Source: Phycisphaeraceae bacterium (GTDB lineage Bacteria > Planctomycetota > Phycisphaerae > Phycisphaerales > SM1A02). From it: a DNA stretch of 64,000 bases. A program made the position numbers and the translations under genes. The DNA lies in contig JAHBWZ010000013.1 in assembly GCA_019636755.1 (NCBI GenBank), positions 1-64,000 on the forward strand, in the 5' to 3' direction. Numbering within the stretch: position 1 is the first letter of the stretch; the number at the start of each line of letters is the position of its first letter. This document shows, in pieces, positions 2,090-14,385 of the stretch. The notes under the pieces are model-generated. The model was not told the origin of the DNA. It worked only from the letters and a program-made list of their open reading frames with translations, and did not search any database.

Positions 2090-4948
2090 TCAGGCGTCGA
2101 GATCGCCTCGTTCGTGGGCGACGAAGCGGGCGGATGCGGGACTCCGCCCCAGTTCGTCGAAGACAAGGAGGTCGTTGCCGTCACCCAGGTCGATCCGATC
2201 GATCGGCAGCAGGAGCCGCTTCTGCGGTCCGATCTCGCGCCCGTTCGCGTCCGCGGCCAGGTAGCGCGCGAGCGGGCGACCGTTCAGGAGTACCACCCCC
2301 CGGCTCAGCCCCTTCACGTCGAACCAGAGCGGAAGGGATGGATCCTCGACGCGGAAGGACGTGCGCCACCAGGCGGGCGTGCCCGCGGGTGCCGCATCCG
2401 CGCTGAAGCGCGTCGCCGCCGGCGGCTCCCATCGGGCGAAGCACCAGCCGTCGCCGATCTCGCCGGCGGATTCGTAGAGACGGACCTGCGCCGCGCTCTT
2501 CCTGGCATCGACGGTGTGGCCGGGATCGGGTGCGAAGCGCAGCACGTGCTTCGTTCCTCTGATCGCAGGATGGGTGGTCGGATCAAGGATGCACGAGAGC
2601 CGCCGGCCGATGCGCGGTCCGTCGTAGCGGGCGATCGTCACGCCGTTGAGCACGAACGTCCCCGGGCACTCGAGGTCGGTGACTTCGAGCAGGATCTTCG
2701 CCTTCCGGGCATACGTGAACGACCACGCGACCTGCACCGGTTCGCTCACCTGGCCGCGCGTGAGGCCCTCGATGAAACTGCGGGCGGTGAAGGGATCGAT
2801 CGGTGCCTCGGTCACCTTCTGCGACTTCAGGGCGATGGCCTTGACTTCGTGCAGCGGCTGCGTCAGCCCGATGATCTCCTGGACGCCGCCACCCTCGCCC
2901 GGGCGTCCCGGGTTGTCCACGAGCGCCGTCAGTCGATGCTCGCCGCGCCCGAGCCGCAGCGCGAGCGGCTCGCCGCCGGCATCGTCGCCCGTGCCGCCGA
3001 TGCCGACCGGCTGTCCGTTGAGATACCACCGCAGCCGGCCGCCGGAGACCGGCGCAAGGACCTCGCGTGTCCGGACGGCGCCGCTTCGGATCGTGGCGAG
3101 GTACCAGCCGTATCCCGTCGGAGCGCCGCACGCCGCAAGCGGCTGCGGCCCGGCGAGCGTCGCATACCGCGCGGAGGTGCCGTCGGCGTAGTCGGTGGCC
3201 GGCGCGCATGTCCATCCGCCGTGCTGGACGGGCGGAGCACTGCGCGCGGTGCGGCCGGCACCGCGGCGCGCCGCGGATCCTGGCGCGGCCGGTGATCCGG
3301 CGGTCTTCCGCGACCGACCGGTGGTCGAGCGCACGGTCTGCGGTTCGCCCTCGCCGCGGACGATCGTCGCGTGCTTCCAGCTCTCGGCCGGTTGCGGGGA
3401 CGCGTCGTCGTACCCGGCATCGACGCCGACGACCAGGTGATCGTCGCGCACGATGCAGGCATCGACCTGGGCCTCGTTGAGAATCACCAGGCGCACGCCC
3501 TTGTGGTCGAGGATGAGCGGTGTCTCGCCGGACGGAATCGCAGCATGGAGCGGCGTTCCGTTGAGCGAGACGATCGCTTCCATGCCCGCGGGGCCGTACA
3601 GCACCAGGATCCGCTGGTTGATGAGCGCGAAGGGGCAGAGATTGGCGTAGTCGAGCCGGCCGCGTCCCTGGAGGTCCGCGTCGACGAGATACCACCCCAC
3701 CGGCTGGTCGCCGAGCGCGACGGGCAGGTGGGTGCCGTCCTCGAGCAGCAGACGGGCGCCCGCCGGCGCCGGCGATCCGAAGAGAAACACGATCTGACCA
3801 CCGCGACCGCGCAGCGGAATCACGGTGGTCGCGGATGTCGGCGCATCGCCGGCCGGCTTCGCATTGGCGCGGCGACGCGTGCGGCCGGTCGAGGGCTCGG
3901 TCGCCGTCCGCGCGGATGCCGGCAGGGAGAGATCAAGCGCGGCGGGCTGGTACGCGGCATCCAGATCGGCGAATACCGGCGCGAAGCGACTGGCGAACAT
4001 GGCGAGTCGCCGGATGCGGCGCAGGGCGGGCGACCAGGCGCCCGCTTCGCCGACCGGCGCGAAGGCCGCCGCCGCCGCGGTCACCGGGCGCGGGGAGTGA
4101 GGCGACCGGCCCCCGATGAATCCGAAGTTGGAGCCGCCGTGGAACGGCCGGATGATCGGCTGTGCGCCCGCCGCGAGCGCTTCTGCGAACTGCACGAGAA
4201 GACGATCCGGGTCCGGCGGTTCGGGGGCATCGCCGGAGGCCGGCGCCGGCGCGGCGGGAATCGTGACGATCCGCGGCGCCTCCGGCTGCAGCGCGCGGAG
4301 CTGCCGGAGATTCGCCAGCAGGTCCGCCTGGCCAGACCACGTGTCCACGGTGTCGCCGCCCTCCACCCAGAGGTTGTTGGCGTTCAGGAGCGGTACCTGG
4401 ATGCCGGTCTCGCGGGCGATCCGCACCAGGGCCTCGAAGTAGCGGGCCGCTTCCGCCTCGTTGCCGCAGGACCATCCGTCCTCCAGTTGAACGAGGGTGA
4501 TCGGTCCTCCCTGCGTCGCCTGCATGGACCCGATCTGTGCCCAGAGGCGATGCAGGAACCGGCTGAACCGATCCAGGAACACGTCGTTCGTCACCCGGAA
4601 CTGCACGCCCTCTTCAATCGCAAGCCACGCCGGGATGCCGCCGCCGTCGTACGCCGAGCCGATGAACGGACCGACGCGCAGGATGACGCGCAGGCCGAGC
4701 GATCCCGCCAGCTCGATGAAGCGGGCGATGTGGGCGTCGCCTTCGAACTCGTAGCGATTGCGGCGCGGTTCATGCACCGACCATGGACACGCGGTCTCCA
4801 CCGTGTTGAAGCCGGCGTCGCGCAGGTCGCCGAGCCGGGCGAGCCAGGCGCCCGGACTGGTCCGGGCGGCATCGATGGAGCCGGCAACCAGCCAGAGTCG
4901 ACGGCCGTCAACGGCGAAGCTCTGGCCCGTATAGGAGAGACTTGGCAT
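2090..4948 (-). CDS. GH35-like (beta-galactosidase fold) protein lacking catalytic glutamates
   Basis: The 952-residue protein matches the GH35 beta-galactosidase barrel over residues 10-290: a GSID block at 23-26, a PWSVHEP block at 55-61, RVGPFIGSAYDGGGIPAWL at 91-109, GGPITLVQLEDGW at 147-159 and FHGGSNFGF at 269-277, followed by several beta-sandwich segments. In active GH35 enzymes the 147-159 block reads Q-x-E-N-E-Y, whose second Glu is the acid/base; here it is Q-L-E-D-G-W. The block carrying the nucleophile Glu (NSEFYTGW-like) is a Pro/Ala-rich stretch around 224-240. The CAEW block is also altered to GSAY. The fold is therefore recognisable but classical hydrolysis is unlikely; a carbohydrate-binding role is an inference. 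I see no signal peptide with the chosen ATG at 4948. An Ala/Pro/Arg-rich linker splits the C-terminal half. Confidence 0.8.
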   Translation of the reverse strand: MPSLSYTGQSFAVDGRRLWLVAGSIDAARTSPGAWLARLGDLRDAGFNTVETACPWSVHEPRRNRYEFEGDAHIARFIELAGSLGLRVILRVGPFIGSAYDGGGIPAWLAIEEGVQFRVTNDVFLDRFSRFLHRLWAQIGSMQATQGGPITLVQLEDGWSCGNEAEAARYFEALVRIARETGIQVPLLNANNLWVEGGDTVDTWSGQADLLANLRQLRALQPEAPRIVTIPAAPAPASGDAPEPPDPDRLLVQFAEALAAGAQPIIRPFHGGSNFGFIGGRSPHSPRPVTAAAAAFAPVGEAGAWSPALRRIRRLAMFASRFAPVFADLDAAYQPAALDLSLPASARTATEPSTGRTRRRANAKPAGDAPTSATTVIPLRGRGGQIVFLFGSPAPAGARLLLEDGTHLPVALGDQPVGWYLVDADLQGRGRLDYANLCPFALINQRILVLYGPAGMEAIVSLNGTPLHAAIPSGETPLILDHKGVRLVILNEAQVDACIVRDDHLVVGVDAGYDDASPQPAESWKHATIVRGEGEPQTVRSTTGRSRKTAGSPAAPGSAARRGAGRTARSAPPVQHGGWTCAPATDYADGTSARYATLAGPQPLAACGAPTGYGWYLATIRSGAVRTREVLAPVSGGRLRWYLNGQPVGIGGTGDDAGGEPLALRLGRGEHRLTALVDNPGRPGEGGGVQEIIGLTQPLHEVKAIALKSQKVTEAPIDPFTARSFIEGLTRGQVSEPVQVAWSFTYARKAKILLEVTDLECPGTFVLNGVTIARYDGPRIGRRLSCILDPTTHPAIRGTKHVLRFAPDPGHTVDARKSAAQVRLYESAGEIGDGWCFARWEPPAATRFSADAAPAGTPAWWRTSFRVEDPSLPLWFDVKGLSRGVVLLNGRPLARYLAADANGREIGPQKRLLLPIDRIDLGDGNDLLVFDELGRSPASARFVAHERGDLDA

Positions 4949-10699: not shown

Positions 10700-11581
10700 T
10701 CAGTCGCGGTCTCCCGGATGCCCTGCCCGCAGGTTCCACTGCACGCCCGGCGTGTAGTCCAGCAGGTCGTAGAGCGCCGTGCGCGCCTGCATCTCCGGAA
10801 GCAGGGCGCGGACGGTGCCGTCCTGTCGCAGGGTCCGCAGGCCGCGTTCGATGTGACCCATGGCCAGCCGCATCATGCTCAGCGGATAGATCACCAGCGC
10901 GTAGCCCAGGTCGGCGAAGCGCTGCGCGGGAATGTCGGGCGTCTTCCCGAACTCGGTCATGTTTGCCAGGAGCGGACCGGGCGACTCCCGGGCGAAGCGT
11001 GCGAACTCCTCCTCGCTCTGCAGCCCCTCCGGGAAGATGACGTCGGCCCCCGCGCTGCGGTAGAGATTCGCGCGGACGATCGCGTCCTCCAGCGACGTGA
11101 CGGACCTGGCGTCGGTGCGCGCGATGATGACGAAATCGGGCGTGGTCCGGTGCGTCGCCATCGCGCGGAGCTTGTCCGCCATGTCCGCGGCGGGAATGAG
11201 CGCCTTGCCGTCCAGGTGCCCGCACCGCTTGGGAAACACCTGGTCCTCCAGGTGAAGCGCCGCGGCGCCGGCACGCTCGTATTCCACGACCGTGCGGACG
11301 CAGCATTCGACCTCGCCGTAGCCCGTGTCGGCATCCGCGATGACCGGCAGGCGTGAGGCATCGGCGATCTCGCGGATCGTCCGGCACATCTCCGTCAGCG
11401 TGATGAGCCCGATGTCCGGGTATCCGGCCACGTTCGCGGTCGCGCCGCCGGAGATGTAGACGGCCTCGAATCCGGCGCGGGCGACGGCCCGCGCGACGAG
11501 CGCGTTGAACGCGCCGGGACAGACGACGGTGCCGCGGGCCATGAGGTCACGAAGCCGGCGGCCCGGATGCGGTGGGGTCAT
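10700..11581 (-). CDS. prpB: Isocitrate lyase/PEP mutase family enzyme, probably 2-methylisocitrate lyase
   Basis: Cytoplasmic TIM-barrel lyase that would split 2-methylisocitrate to pyruvate and succinate. The 293-residue length fits PrpB. Family landmarks are present: YISGGA (42-47), the Mg-binding DADTGYG (83-89), the LEDQ block and KRCGH (118-122) with catalytic Cys 120, which separates lyases from PEP mutases and decarboxylases. No prpC or prpD is adjacent, so participation in the methylcitrate cycle is inferred only from the motif; a related 2,3-dimethylmalate- or oxaloacetate-directed activity is possible. The ATG at 11581 has AGGGAG about 11 bases upstream. It lies 57 bp behind the membrane fusion gene on the same strand and may be co-transcribed. 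Confidence 0.85.
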   Translation of the reverse strand: MTPPHPGRRLRDLMARGTVVCPGAFNALVARAVARAGFEAVYISGGATANVAGYPDIGLITLTEMCRTIREIADASRLPVIADADTGYGEVECCVRTVVEYERAGAAALHLEDQVFPKRCGHLDGKALIPAADMADKLRAMATHRTTPDFVIIARTDARSVTSLEDAIVRANLYRSAGADVIFPEGLQSEEEFARFARESPGPLLANMTEFGKTPDIPAQRFADLGYALVIYPLSMMRLAMGHIERGLRTLRQDGTVRALLPEMQARTALYDLLDYTPGVQWNLRAGHPGDRD

Positions 11582-11638: not shown

Positions 11639-13609
11639 TTATGGGGGATCGGAGGAGGGATCGGCCACTTCGACCGGCGCGAGGCGCGCACACCGACGGT
11701 CGGCGTCGGGGAAGTCGACGCTCATCGCGAACGCGAAGAGCCCGCCGACCGCGATCGCCCAGGGCAGCACCGACCAGCCGGAGGCACTGATGGCGGCCGC
11801 CGGCGGCGCGTGCAGCGTCGTGAGGACCGCGCCGGTGATCACGGAGAGCATGGCGGCCCAGTGGAAGATGTGCAGGCCGCCGAAGCGCGGCGCCTTCGGC
11901 TCACAGCGGTAGCTTTCCTCGGCGAAGCGTGTGACGCCGGCAAGGACCAGGGCCACGCCGCCGACCACGCTGCACGGCGCCCCTTCCATCCAGAGCCGGA
12001 GCAGGATCGGCATGGAGGCCACGTTCGCGAGCATCGAGTACACCTGCGTGGGGTAGATCGATCGTCCCCGCAGCCCGGCGAGCCAGCAGACGCGGCTCTG
12101 CGGCGCGACGACGATGATGCCGTGCGCCGCAGCGCCGGTCTCGCTGCCGTGGCAGCAGCCCTGCACGAGGCAGCGGAGCCGGCCGATCGCCTGGATGAGC
12201 GGCGCCGAGACGGCGAGCGCGGCGAAGAGCGGCCAGCCCGGTCCGCCGAGCGCGGCGATCAGCAGGATGGTCGAACCGGCACCGATCGCGAAGCCGTGGT
12301 AGCCGAACGGTCGGGAGAGCCCGCTTCCACGCAGGACGCACTGGAGCCAGAGACCGGCCCCGACGATGCCGCCGATCGCGGTGACCGTGACCGGCACGAC
12401 CGCCGCGCGGCCGAGCAGCAGACCGAGGAGCACGGCCCCGACGAAGCCCGCCGTGAACGACCACGCCGCGTGGCTGAGGATCCGCAGCGGCCCCAGGCGC
12501 CACGCGCGGAAACTGTTCGCCAGCCGCTCCGAGCCGCGGAGCAGGCCGTGCCACGCGCGGCCCGCATGCCAGGAGAGCAGTGCGATCGGGACCGCGGCAA
12601 GCACGTCGATCAGGGCATGCATGCCGGTCGTGATGCAGCCTGCACAGTTGAGCGCCGCCCACGTGGCGCCGACGGCGCCGACGATGCGGCCGCGGGTGAA
12701 GCATGCCAGCCCGCAGAGCAGTGCCCAGCCCGCGTGGAACGCGGGAAACGTGGCGCCACCGGGTCGGCCGAGTTCGTCATACGCACGGTCCATCGCGAGC
12801 AGTCTGCCGAGCGCGGTGGTCGGTTCGAACGGCCGGGGCGGCGCCGCGAGCGGGACGACGAGCTGCATGCCTCCGATGATGATGGTCAGCACGATTCCCG
12901 CGACGGCGAATCGCCGGACCGCGCGGCGTGTCGGCAGGAGGAAGGTCATCAGGAGGACGACCGGATAGGCGCTGGCATAGAGCGCCTCGGTCCACTCGAT
13001 GACCGGCCACGGCCGCTCGAACGGGAGGTACGCGTTCCAGGCGCCCGGCACCCGGCCACAGGCGATGATCGCGGTGTAGACGAGCAGCCATGGCGCCAGG
13101 ACGAGCAGCCACACGGAGAGATGATCGTGCCAGCGCGGCGGTGCATCCTCCGGCGGCGGCAGTGCGACCAGGACCGGCGGCAGCACACCGAAGCGGCGTC
13201 GCAGATCGAGGCGCTCGTAGCCGAGGACCAGTGCCGCGCATCCCGCGGCGAGCGTCGGCGAGATCAGCCACAGTCCGGCCGACGAGCCGACGGCGATGCT
13301 CACGCCCGCCGAAATCAGCACGGCGCCGATGTAGATCGGGTCGGCGAGCCAGCGGTAGACGCCGCGCGCGACATGATGGCGTGGCGGGAAGGCGTTCATC
13401 GGCAGGCCTCCGCCGAAGCGCCACAGCGCATGCCAGGCGCTGAGCAGCAGCCCGGCGCCGACCGCGACCAGGCCCCAGCCGGCCCCCGGGTGATGCAGGT
13501 GCGGCAGTGCGACGTTCGACTCCGCCGAGCGCGCCCACCAGGCGAGGAGCAGCGGAAGCAGCAGCAGGAAGACCGCGCCGTACAGCACACGGCCGGCGCG
13601 CCCGTTCAT
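11639..13609 (-). CDS. Three-part membrane fusion: ICMT-like + PAP2-like + Lgt-like
   Basis: A 656-residue polytopic membrane protein. Residues 1-140 resemble isoprenylcysteine/phospholipid methyltransferases (GVYRWLADPIYIG, 83-95), though the usual RHP triad is changed to ADP. Residues 165-345 resemble the PAP2 phosphatase family, with FPAFH (288-292) in place of PSGH and a TTGMHALIDV block (327-336; H331, D335). Residues 430-640 carry the landmarks of prolipoprotein diacylglyceryl transferase relatives: YHGFAIG (437-443), GRLRCLVQGCCHG (476-488), YPTQVY (519-524) and EESYRCEP (564-571). The ATG at 13609 is chosen because it overlaps the preceding gene's stop as ATGA; an ATG nine bases earlier is possible. 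Function unknown; the parts suggest handling of an isoprenoid or phospholipid head group. Confidence 0.8.
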   Translation of the reverse strand: MNGRAGRVLYGAVFLLLLPLLLAWWARSAESNVALPHLHHPGAGWGLVAVGAGLLLSAWHALWRFGGGLPMNAFPPRHHVARGVYRWLADPIYIGAVLISAGVSIAVGSSAGLWLISPTLAAGCAALVLGYERLDLRRRFGVLPPVLVALPPPEDAPPRWHDHLSVWLLVLAPWLLVYTAIIACGRVPGAWNAYLPFERPWPVIEWTEALYASAYPVVLLMTFLLPTRRAVRRFAVAGIVLTIIIGGMQLVVPLAAPPRPFEPTTALGRLLAMDRAYDELGRPGGATFPAFHAGWALLCGLACFTRGRIVGAVGATWAALNCAGCITTGMHALIDVLAAVPIALLSWHAGRAWHGLLRGSERLANSFRAWRLGPLRILSHAAWSFTAGFVGAVLLGLLLGRAAVVPVTVTAIGGIVGAGLWLQCVLRGSGLSRPFGYHGFAIGAGSTILLIAALGGPGWPLFAALAVSAPLIQAIGRLRCLVQGCCHGSETGAAAHGIIVVAPQSRVCWLAGLRGRSIYPTQVYSMLANVASMPILLRLWMEGAPCSVVGGVALVLAGVTRFAEESYRCEPKAPRFGGLHIFHWAAMLSVITGAVLTTLHAPPAAAISASGWSVLPWAIAVGGLFAFAMSVDFPDADRRCARLAPVEVADPSSDPP

Positions 13610-14385
13610 CGGGGCCACTCCACGCGCTCATGCAGCGCCCATCCGGAGACCTCGCCCATCGTGGCGCGACTGACCCACCTGGTCTCGTGGCCTGCGAGCA
13701 TGCGCGACAGAGGCAGCGCGCGGAGGCCCGGGATTCTTCCAGAAAGCATCGGGCCGAGCGTCGCGTCGCGGACCGTGGTCCGCCGGTCGAGTTCGAGGGG
13801 TCGCGCGCCCTCGAGCAGGATGCGGTCATCCGCGATCTCCGGCGCCTCGACCGGGTGTCCGTCGCGGAAACACCAGCGTGCGGGAACGGGTCCCTGCCAG
13901 TCGATCCAGACGAGCGTTTCGGAACCGAGATGGCATCGCCCCCAGCGCAGGACATCGATGGGAATGGTCCACGGCGCCATCGTCATCGTGAGGCGCTCGG
14001 CGTAGCCGATCCCGGTGAAGCGCCGGCCGCCGGCGGTCGCGTCGACCCGCGCGGCCGGGAGCAGGCATGCCCAGTCGATGCAGCCGTCGGCGGTTTCGAG
14101 CAGCCGCTGCGTGATCGGTGGCGCGAGCGCGCTCCACGTCCCGGTGAGACGCAGGCGCGGCTCATGCAGGTGCATCCGGGTGCCATCCCACCGCGGCGCG
14201 GGCGCCGGCGCAAGCGTGACCTGGTCGAACGGAGCGCCGTCGCGGGTGGTGCCGAGTACCTCCGCGAGGTGCAGGGCCGGCAGGGGTGGCAGCGCGAGCG
14301 CGGCGTGGTAGACGATCAGGACGCACCCGTCATCGGTGATGACATCGGCGTACCACTTCTCCAGGCGAGGTCGGTGACTCGTCAC
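13606..14385 (-). CDS. CrtC/AttH lipocalin-like protein
   Basis: A 259-residue beta-rich protein that opens with EKWYADVITDDG and continues with alternating beta segments and WIDW/WALHE-type motifs, resembling the hydroxyneurosporene synthase (CrtC)/AttH lipocalin-like group, which bind or modify hydrophobic molecules such as carotenoids. The match is by overall pattern, so the exact activity is not assigned. I see no signal peptide. The GTG start at 14385 is the first plausible start that leaves room for the divergent stress gene; no strong ribosome-binding site is visible. Its TGA overlaps the start of the ICMT-PAP2-Lgt fusion, so the two products probably work together. Confidence 0.55.
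   Translation of the reverse strand: MTSHRPRLEKWYADVITDDGCVLIVYHAALALPPLPALHLAEVLGTTRDGAPFDQVTLAPAPAPRWDGTRMHLHEPRLRLTGTWSALAPPITQRLLETADGCIDWACLLPAARVDATAGGRRFTGIGYAERLTMTMAPWTIPIDVLRWGRCHLGSETLVWIDWQGPVPARWCFRDGHPVEAPEIADDRILLEGARPLELDRRTTVRDATLGPMLSGRIPGLRALPLSRMLAGHETRWVSRATMGEVSGWALHERVEWPR

Follow-up and report, generated by a model that had tools for sequence, protein, structure and literature searches.

A membrane fusion of PEMT/ICMT-like, PAP2_3 and Lgt-fold domains with a constant double-lipocalin partner: a candidate lipid-tailoring module

Introduction

What is the purpose of a single bacterial membrane protein in which the landmarks of three unrelated enzyme families follow one another along one chain? 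The question is raised by a 64,000-nucleotide stretch of DNA from a Phycisphaeraceae bacterium of the class Phycisphaerae (assembly GCA_019636755.1, contig JAHBWZ010000013.1, positions 1 to 64,000; hereafter the window). At 11639..13609, on the minus strand, as is every feature of the window given below, lies an uninterrupted open reading frame (ORF) of 656 residues plus stop, and directly upstream, at 13606..14385, lies an ORF of 259 residues with a GTG start at 14385, which encodes a soluble double-lipocalin protein of the CrtC/AttH fold. The ATG of the membrane protein overlaps the stop of this partner, which ends at 13606, by 4 nucleotides, as had been seen when the pair was first noted. 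We find that fusion and partner are a real and widespread module, constant in its pairing and distinct from the housekeeping prolipoprotein diacylglyceryl transferase (Lgt), and we tentatively favour the view that the two genes tailor a lipid, the domains acting as a relay on a small lipid acceptor to make a glycerolipid.

Three enzyme families in one chain

The original prediction, made from the letters of the window, held that PEMT/ICMT-like, PAP2-like and Lgt-like segments are joined in this protein, and all three segments do match Pfam families above the curated cut-offs: PEMT at residues 44-127 (28.8 bits against 25), PAP2_3 (PF14378) at residues 204-347 (54.3 against 27), and LGT (PF01790) at residues 435-597 (46.6 against 24.9). 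A recount over 76 relatives (omitting the window, L082 and L110) finds LGT and PEMT in 76/76 and PAP2_3 in 73/76 at E<=0.01, with ICMT and DUF1295 matching the N-terminal third in 36 and 10 of them, respectively. With the NCBIfam Lgt model NF000778, on the other hand, the window protein scores just 39.7 bits, far under the cut-off of 334.

An AlphaFold model of the membrane protein, computed with 78 aligned family members, has a mean predicted local distance difference test score (pLDDT) of 93.0 and a predicted template modelling score of 0.92, and rather than falling to one known family it matches the PAP2 and Lgt folds separately. Residues 354-601 align to residues 3-282 of E. coli Lgt (5azb) with Z 15.9 over 231 residues at a root-mean-square deviation of 3.7, the fold being the same throughout, and hhalign of the family against Lgts of the class gives a probability of 99.0% (E 7e-18, 156 columns). 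Because this structural alignment runs from residue 354, the Lgt unit (residues 354-602; 11804..12550) begins near 354 and not at 430, where it had first been placed; the order of the three domains stands. Residues ~146-353 of the model align to PAP2 enzymes (IPC synthase, Z 12.8; LpxE, 12.6; Aur1, 12.4; PgpB, 11.5), in agreement with an Aur1/IPC-synthase-like PAP2_3 domain of six transmembrane helices at residues 151-353 (12551..13159). In a Foldseek search of the model, E 0.001 was passed by the Lgt match only, and a search of solved structures by sequence profile gave no match for the membrane-protein family or the partner family. Residues 1-150 (13160..13609, four transmembrane helices) were barely covered by the structure search of the model, so the assignment of this N-terminal third as a PEMT/ICMT-like methyltransferase domain is one made from sequence. 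An extra C-terminal transmembrane helix (609-630) and a conserved DFP tail complete the chain (residues 603-656; 11642..11803).

Catalytic residues and the window copy

Relatives were collected by scanning GTDB contigs with short peptides of the membrane protein, and the best 80 of 114 confirmed relatives were kept; 79 of these loci, four loci from the genomes labelled G and the window together make the 84 places analysed. Conservation was read from 79 rows, omitting L002, L003 (the window itself), L006, L028 (G135), L007 (G127), the split or truncated frames L074, L094 and L096, and L103 (a duplicate of L102); the alignment A1 holds 78 rows, L082 also being left out.

In the Lgt-fold domain R477, C480, G488, R561, E565 and R568 are invariant (79/79), and they occupy the positions of E. 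coli R143, N146 (Cys here), G154, R239, E243 and R246. R477 and G488 belong to the signature GRLRCLVQGCCHG (residues 476-488; 12146..12184), the general form of which, GRxxC..(N/Q)GCCxG, is common to the fusion domain and the Lgts of the class, while the last three lie in the segment R561-F-A-E-E565-S-Y-R568-C-E570 (11900..11929). One study reports that R143 and R239 of the E. coli enzyme are essential and that E243 and R246 mutants do not complement (PMC4728403). A second source counts Y26, H103, R143, N146, G154 and R239 among the essential residues and quotes G145, Y235 and R246 in the same sense, but there E243A was functional in the strain used; the same source records Cys for N146 in Leptospira Lgt and Tyr at the H103 position in Firmicutes Lgts (PMC13251419). 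Cys stands at the N146 position in 14/14 Lgts of the class as well. Many of these housekeeping enzymes (L111, L118, L132 and L138, for example) carry GRIGCF(L)NGCCYG-like signatures, with both N146 and E151 of E. coli replaced by Cys.

The PAP2 domain has the fold of the PAP2_3 enzymes (Aur1/IPC synthase and the sphingomyelin-synthase-related protein, as well as LpxE and PgpB) and their PSFH plus SC-x5-H-x3-D triad, here set between two other enzymes. Its triad is H292 in motif 2 (12734..12736), found in 77 of the 79 sequences, with H331 and D335 in motif 3 (12605..12619), found in 78 each; in 75/79 a Cys replaces the Arg usual in motif 3. The methyltransferase-like domain has the HPxYxG and E132...FG pattern and the four helices common to PEMT and ICMT enzymes (PF04191, PF04140), with Y93 and E132 in 79/79 and His at position 90 in 71/79. 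Measured against RHP(x)Y, the motif of these methyltransferases, the family has no conserved Arg before HP.

The window copy itself departs from this pattern, in that its HPxY motif reads D90-P91-I-Y93 and its PAP2 motif reads PAFH, where PSFH is the usual form (S in 62/79, H in 77/79). Both changes, which had been noticed at the outset as ADP and PAFH, are real, and they are mostly not features of the family; for the methyltransferase motif, the missing Arg is shared with the relatives, most of which keep the His. The suggestion that activities are partly lost does not hold as a general statement, since the PAP2 triad and the Lgt arginines, along with C480, are conserved family-wide. What these alignments suggest is a family with its key catalytic residues intact and a window copy that is drifting. 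One might go further and regard that copy as a decaying or repurposed member of an active family, with reduced activity. It is the most divergent of the 79, departing from the family at 14 of 109 conserved positions where the median is 3, it carries H90D and S290A (A290 also occurring in 16 other sequences), and its end branch is 0.64 against a median of 0.32, its genus being represented by one genome. Nonetheless, the frame is intact, the 4-nucleotide overlap is retained, and so are the PAP2 triad and Lgt arginines, and we consider such decay somewhat unlikely.

A constant pair in many phyla

A search for the same fusion in other genomes, as the original prediction proposed, finds it, intact, split or truncated, at 82 of the 84 places, the remaining two (G135 and G127) having parts only. 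At all 82 loci the partner lies upstream, as judged by clustering in 73, by strong tblastn matches in five and by one weak match (E 3e-4), with three cut by contig ends. With fusion starts chosen by us, the two genes overlap in 52 of 67 measured cases, by exactly 4 nucleotides in 23, and lie within 30 nucleotides of one another in 60/67. In the class, up to six candidates being scored per genome, the partner was found in 3/397 genomes, exactly the three with a full fusion; in 10/10 fusion genomes examined it lies beside the fusion and nowhere else.

The fusion is present in at least ten phyla, all of them two-membrane phyla. The tree of 79 rows has ten named phyla: Acidobacteriota (26), Bacteroidota (16), Planctomycetota (8), Pseudomonadota (6), Gemmatimonadota (5), Verrucomicrobiota (4), Myxococcota (4), Ignavibacteriota (3), Zixiibacteriota (2) and Calditrichota (1), with four rows ungrouped. 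Within Bacteroidota, two Neisseria sequences adjoin a flavobacterial one with support of 100, a placement that suggests transfer. A mirror-tree correlation of r = 0.87 between fusion and partner (N = 67) is consistent with joint inheritance, though shared ancestry gives the same, and nearest neighbours in the two trees agree in just 34/67; for L102, the nearest row of the fusion is Neisseria and that of the partner is not. A plasmid search gave no match.

The full fusion is rare in the class, with three copies in 397 genomes (up to three candidates scored per genome), beside which there are one copy lacking PAP2 and one of PAP2 only. The former (L145 in G135, 3286-4788) is a 500-residue form with neither PAP2 domain nor partner, and an apparent transposase ORF was recognised by eye just upstream. 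The latter (L146 in G127, ~4169-3480) is an isolated PAP2 part of ~230 residues with 42% identity, and within 6 kb of sequence around it no partner or Lgt part was detected. At L088, two partner copies of equal length and the same start (1124-1912 and 3104-3892) flank a broken piece of the fusion, which is either a recent duplication or an assembly artefact.

Such patchy distribution would suit a role in quality control or salvage, in which the domains repair or recycle damaged phospholipid and the partner is a lipid chaperone, with no new lipid being made. All of the enzymes are general lipid enzymes, and among the matches listed from a scan of same-strand neighbours no fixed wider operon was seen. 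The joint conservation of three catalytic sites better suits a fixed reaction sequence, however, and we think salvage unlikely.

The partner and the isoprenoid question

The AlphaFold model of the partner (pLDDT 95.7) is a double lipocalin, with Z 21-22 to the Diels-Alderases Fsa2, CghA and Phm7, 19 to 25-phosphosteroid lyase, 18.5 to AttH (2ich, 234 residues) and 17 to kievitone hydratase, the next matches falling to 8. The expectation of a CrtC-like protein is therefore borne out for the fold (Z 17-22) and fails for sequence. A Pfam scan of 70 partner members gave no meaningful match (five families, each with one weak member at chance level, best E 0.007), PF07143 being matched by 0/70 at E<=0.1; hhalign against five PF07143-type proteins of the class (alignment A7, five of six PF07143 loci, L151 omitted) gave a probability of 1.2%; and the window's own genome has no PF07143 match. 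The partner alignment (A2) has 70 rows, leaving out L045, L051 and L089, which are short, as well as nine loci that the cluster did not include. The partner is thus a structural relative of the CrtC/AttH proteins and not a member of their sequence family. It is also shorter (~260 residues against 320-380) and, unlike those enzymes, is the constant neighbour of a membrane fusion. Its invariant residues are W105, Y128 and E130, with no sequence alignable to the His/Trp/Tyr/Asp of CrtC/AttH.

This fold, common to kievitone hydratase and AttH, invites the explanation that the module is part of an isoprenoid pathway (carotenoid or squalene-derived), with a CrtC-like hydratase as partner and the membrane protein tailoring its product. 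Phytoene/squalene synthase (PF00494) occurs in 9/10 fusion genomes. The exception, however, is the window's own genome, which has no PF00494 match although it is 99.4% complete, and the class background is 68/150 genomes; a carotenoid or squalene route is accordingly unlikely in the window's organism. A hopanoid link was considered and rejected, squalene-hopene cyclase family matches being found in 5/10 fusion genomes and strong in only three.

Gene neighbourhoods were scanned as 139 same-strand neighbours of under 900 residues (76 upstream, 63 downstream) from crude longest-ORF calls, with opposite-strand calls (61 upstream, 71 downstream) set aside. Among the 25 most frequent families listed from each scan, UbiA is the only frequent one, in 8 of the 76 upstream neighbours, where others occur two or three times; the count was not blind, in that one L075 ORF was swapped for a UbiA ORF previously shown by clustering. 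The eight are presumably the seven found by clustering plus L004. As strong evidence they were rejected: the seven form one Acidobacteria clade and the eighth, closer to MqnP-type prenyltransferases, is of another subfamily, leaving a weak hint to polyprenyl lipids. With a partner that bears no sequence relation to CrtC, we regard the isoprenoid explanation as improbable, other polyprenyl lipids being possible. What stands of the pathway first proposed is joint action on one lipid, the simplest reading of a pair kept at 82/82 loci; its carotenoid substrate is not supported. At L004, from the window's family, the UbiA prenyltransferase gene (4209-4910), for which MqnP/ubiA_other models are the nearest, lies immediately before the partner gene, which is not so in the window. 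Directly downstream of the fusion in the window, at 10700-11581 on the minus strand, a gene like PEP mutase or isocitrate lyase was recognised by eye, and PEP_mutase was matched by one of the 63 downstream neighbours, not necessarily this one.

Predicted opposite faces of the membrane

Spans were grouped as 4+6+8 from the DSSP assignment of the model, with transmembrane limits set by us from DSSP and hydropathy. The last PAP2 helix starts at the catalytic face, with H331 and D335, and only a polar, arm-like segment (351-380) precedes the first Lgt helix. Because the canonical Lgt is entered from its catalytic side, the catalytic faces of PAP2 and Lgt must be opposite, a point that was no part of the original prediction. 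In the Lgt domain the net loop charge is +9.0 on the catalytic face and -0.7 on the other, the catalytic face being higher in 79/79, and without near-invariant charged columns it is still +6.1 versus -0.7 (78/79); in the PAP2 domain the catalytic face has -2.0 versus +4.0 (78/79). By the positive-inside rule, these charges place the Lgt-like site in the cytosol and the PAP2 site in the periplasm. Housekeeping Lgts of the class, used as a control, have -4.5 on the catalytic face versus +9.0, reversed relative to the fusion in 14/14 (alignment A5, 14 Lgts of 30 loci, selected by motif pattern). On this model, the Lgt-like domain is probably inverted in the membrane relative to housekeeping Lgt. 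The PAP2-less copy of G135 is without the six PAP2 spans; as their number is even, the arrangement would be the same there.

The head loop also sets the fusion apart, at 29-34 residues in the 79 aligned sequences compared with 62-107 in class Lgts, where it was measurable in 8 of 14; a pattern-based measurement covered 77 of 78 family rows, one value of 4 being probably a false pattern match. Moreover, a separate full-length Lgt is encoded in the window's genome and in 9/10 other genomes that carry the fusion or, as G135 does, the PAP2-less version; G402 shows the fusion only. A rival view is that two accessory domains have been joined to a lipoprotein diacylglyceryl transferase, which would perform the Lgt reaction on a subset of lipoproteins. 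The LGT Pfam and fold matches and the conserved R143, R239, E243 and R246 positions are in its favour, but we think it unlikely: the fusion is probably not a lipoprotein-modifying enzyme because its head loop is less than half the class length, a separate Lgt is present, and the charge pattern puts its site in the cytosol, with G145 and Y26 replaced besides.

A proposed relay and its standing

Our tentatively favoured reading, the lipid-tailoring relay, would run as follows. An 18-helix protein (4+6+8) would have both ends in the cytosol, with its methyltransferase-like and Lgt-like sites facing the compartment in which the soluble partner also lies, and its PAP2 site facing the periplasm. The partner may hold or shape a hydrophobic acceptor, perhaps by a C=C or C-O step such as proteins of this fold typically carry out. 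To this acceptor the Lgt-like domain could then add a diacylglyceryl group taken from a phospholipid of the inner leaflet, and the N-terminal domain could methylate it. After flipping, the PAP2_3 domain would act last, at the outer face, where it would cleave a phosphate head group or exchange it, and the product would be an undescribed envelope glycerolipid. Donor, acceptor and order of steps are all conjectural. The fuller version, in which an inverted, cytosolic-leaflet Lgt-fold transferase, a methyltransferase, an outward PAP2 phosphotransferase and the partner make a new class of membrane lipid in many phyla, is possible, and we hold it with more reserve.

Several observations weigh against this reading. 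The topology depends on loop charge, on the helix ends of one model and on transmembrane boundaries that we set, and the basic loop 351-380 enters two of the charge sums, that of the Lgt catalytic face and that of the non-catalytic face of PAP2. In the methyltransferase motif the Arg is not conserved. In the Lgt domain, the position of E. coli Y26 (H380) is His in 76/79 and Tyr in three, by a hand alignment to the E. coli sequence; that of G145 (R479) is Arg in 79/79; that of H103 is Tyr or Phe in 78/79, and His in the window copy; and that of Y235 is variable. With residues essential in E. coli so changed, the chemistry may be changed or lost. A strongly hydrophobic N-terminal 12-mer is missing in 68 of 70 partners, but their starts had been trimmed by us to match the window protein, and as a test for signal peptides the result is the weaker for it. 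The G135 form, without PAP2 or partner, means either that the parts can occur separately or that this copy is decaying. Finally, no pathway is indicated by the genes around the pair.

A literature search of open-licence papers recognised no description of the fusion or the pair, which is a weak absence, and in its available part the lipocone paper mentions Lgt and PAP2 just in passing (PMC12419801). Three members were scanned with NCBIfam models, and in each case the nearest was prolipoprotein diacylglyceryl transferase, far under its cut-off, so that these fusion proteins risk being misnamed. Lgt, for which one reaction is known, on the periplasmic side, has been proposed as an antibiotic target (PMC13251419). 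If the inverted reading is true, the Lgt fold would have a second role on the opposite side of the membrane, and a new lipid would await description in Acidobacteriota, Bacteroidota, Planctomycetota, Gemmatimonadota, Verrucomicrobiota and others.

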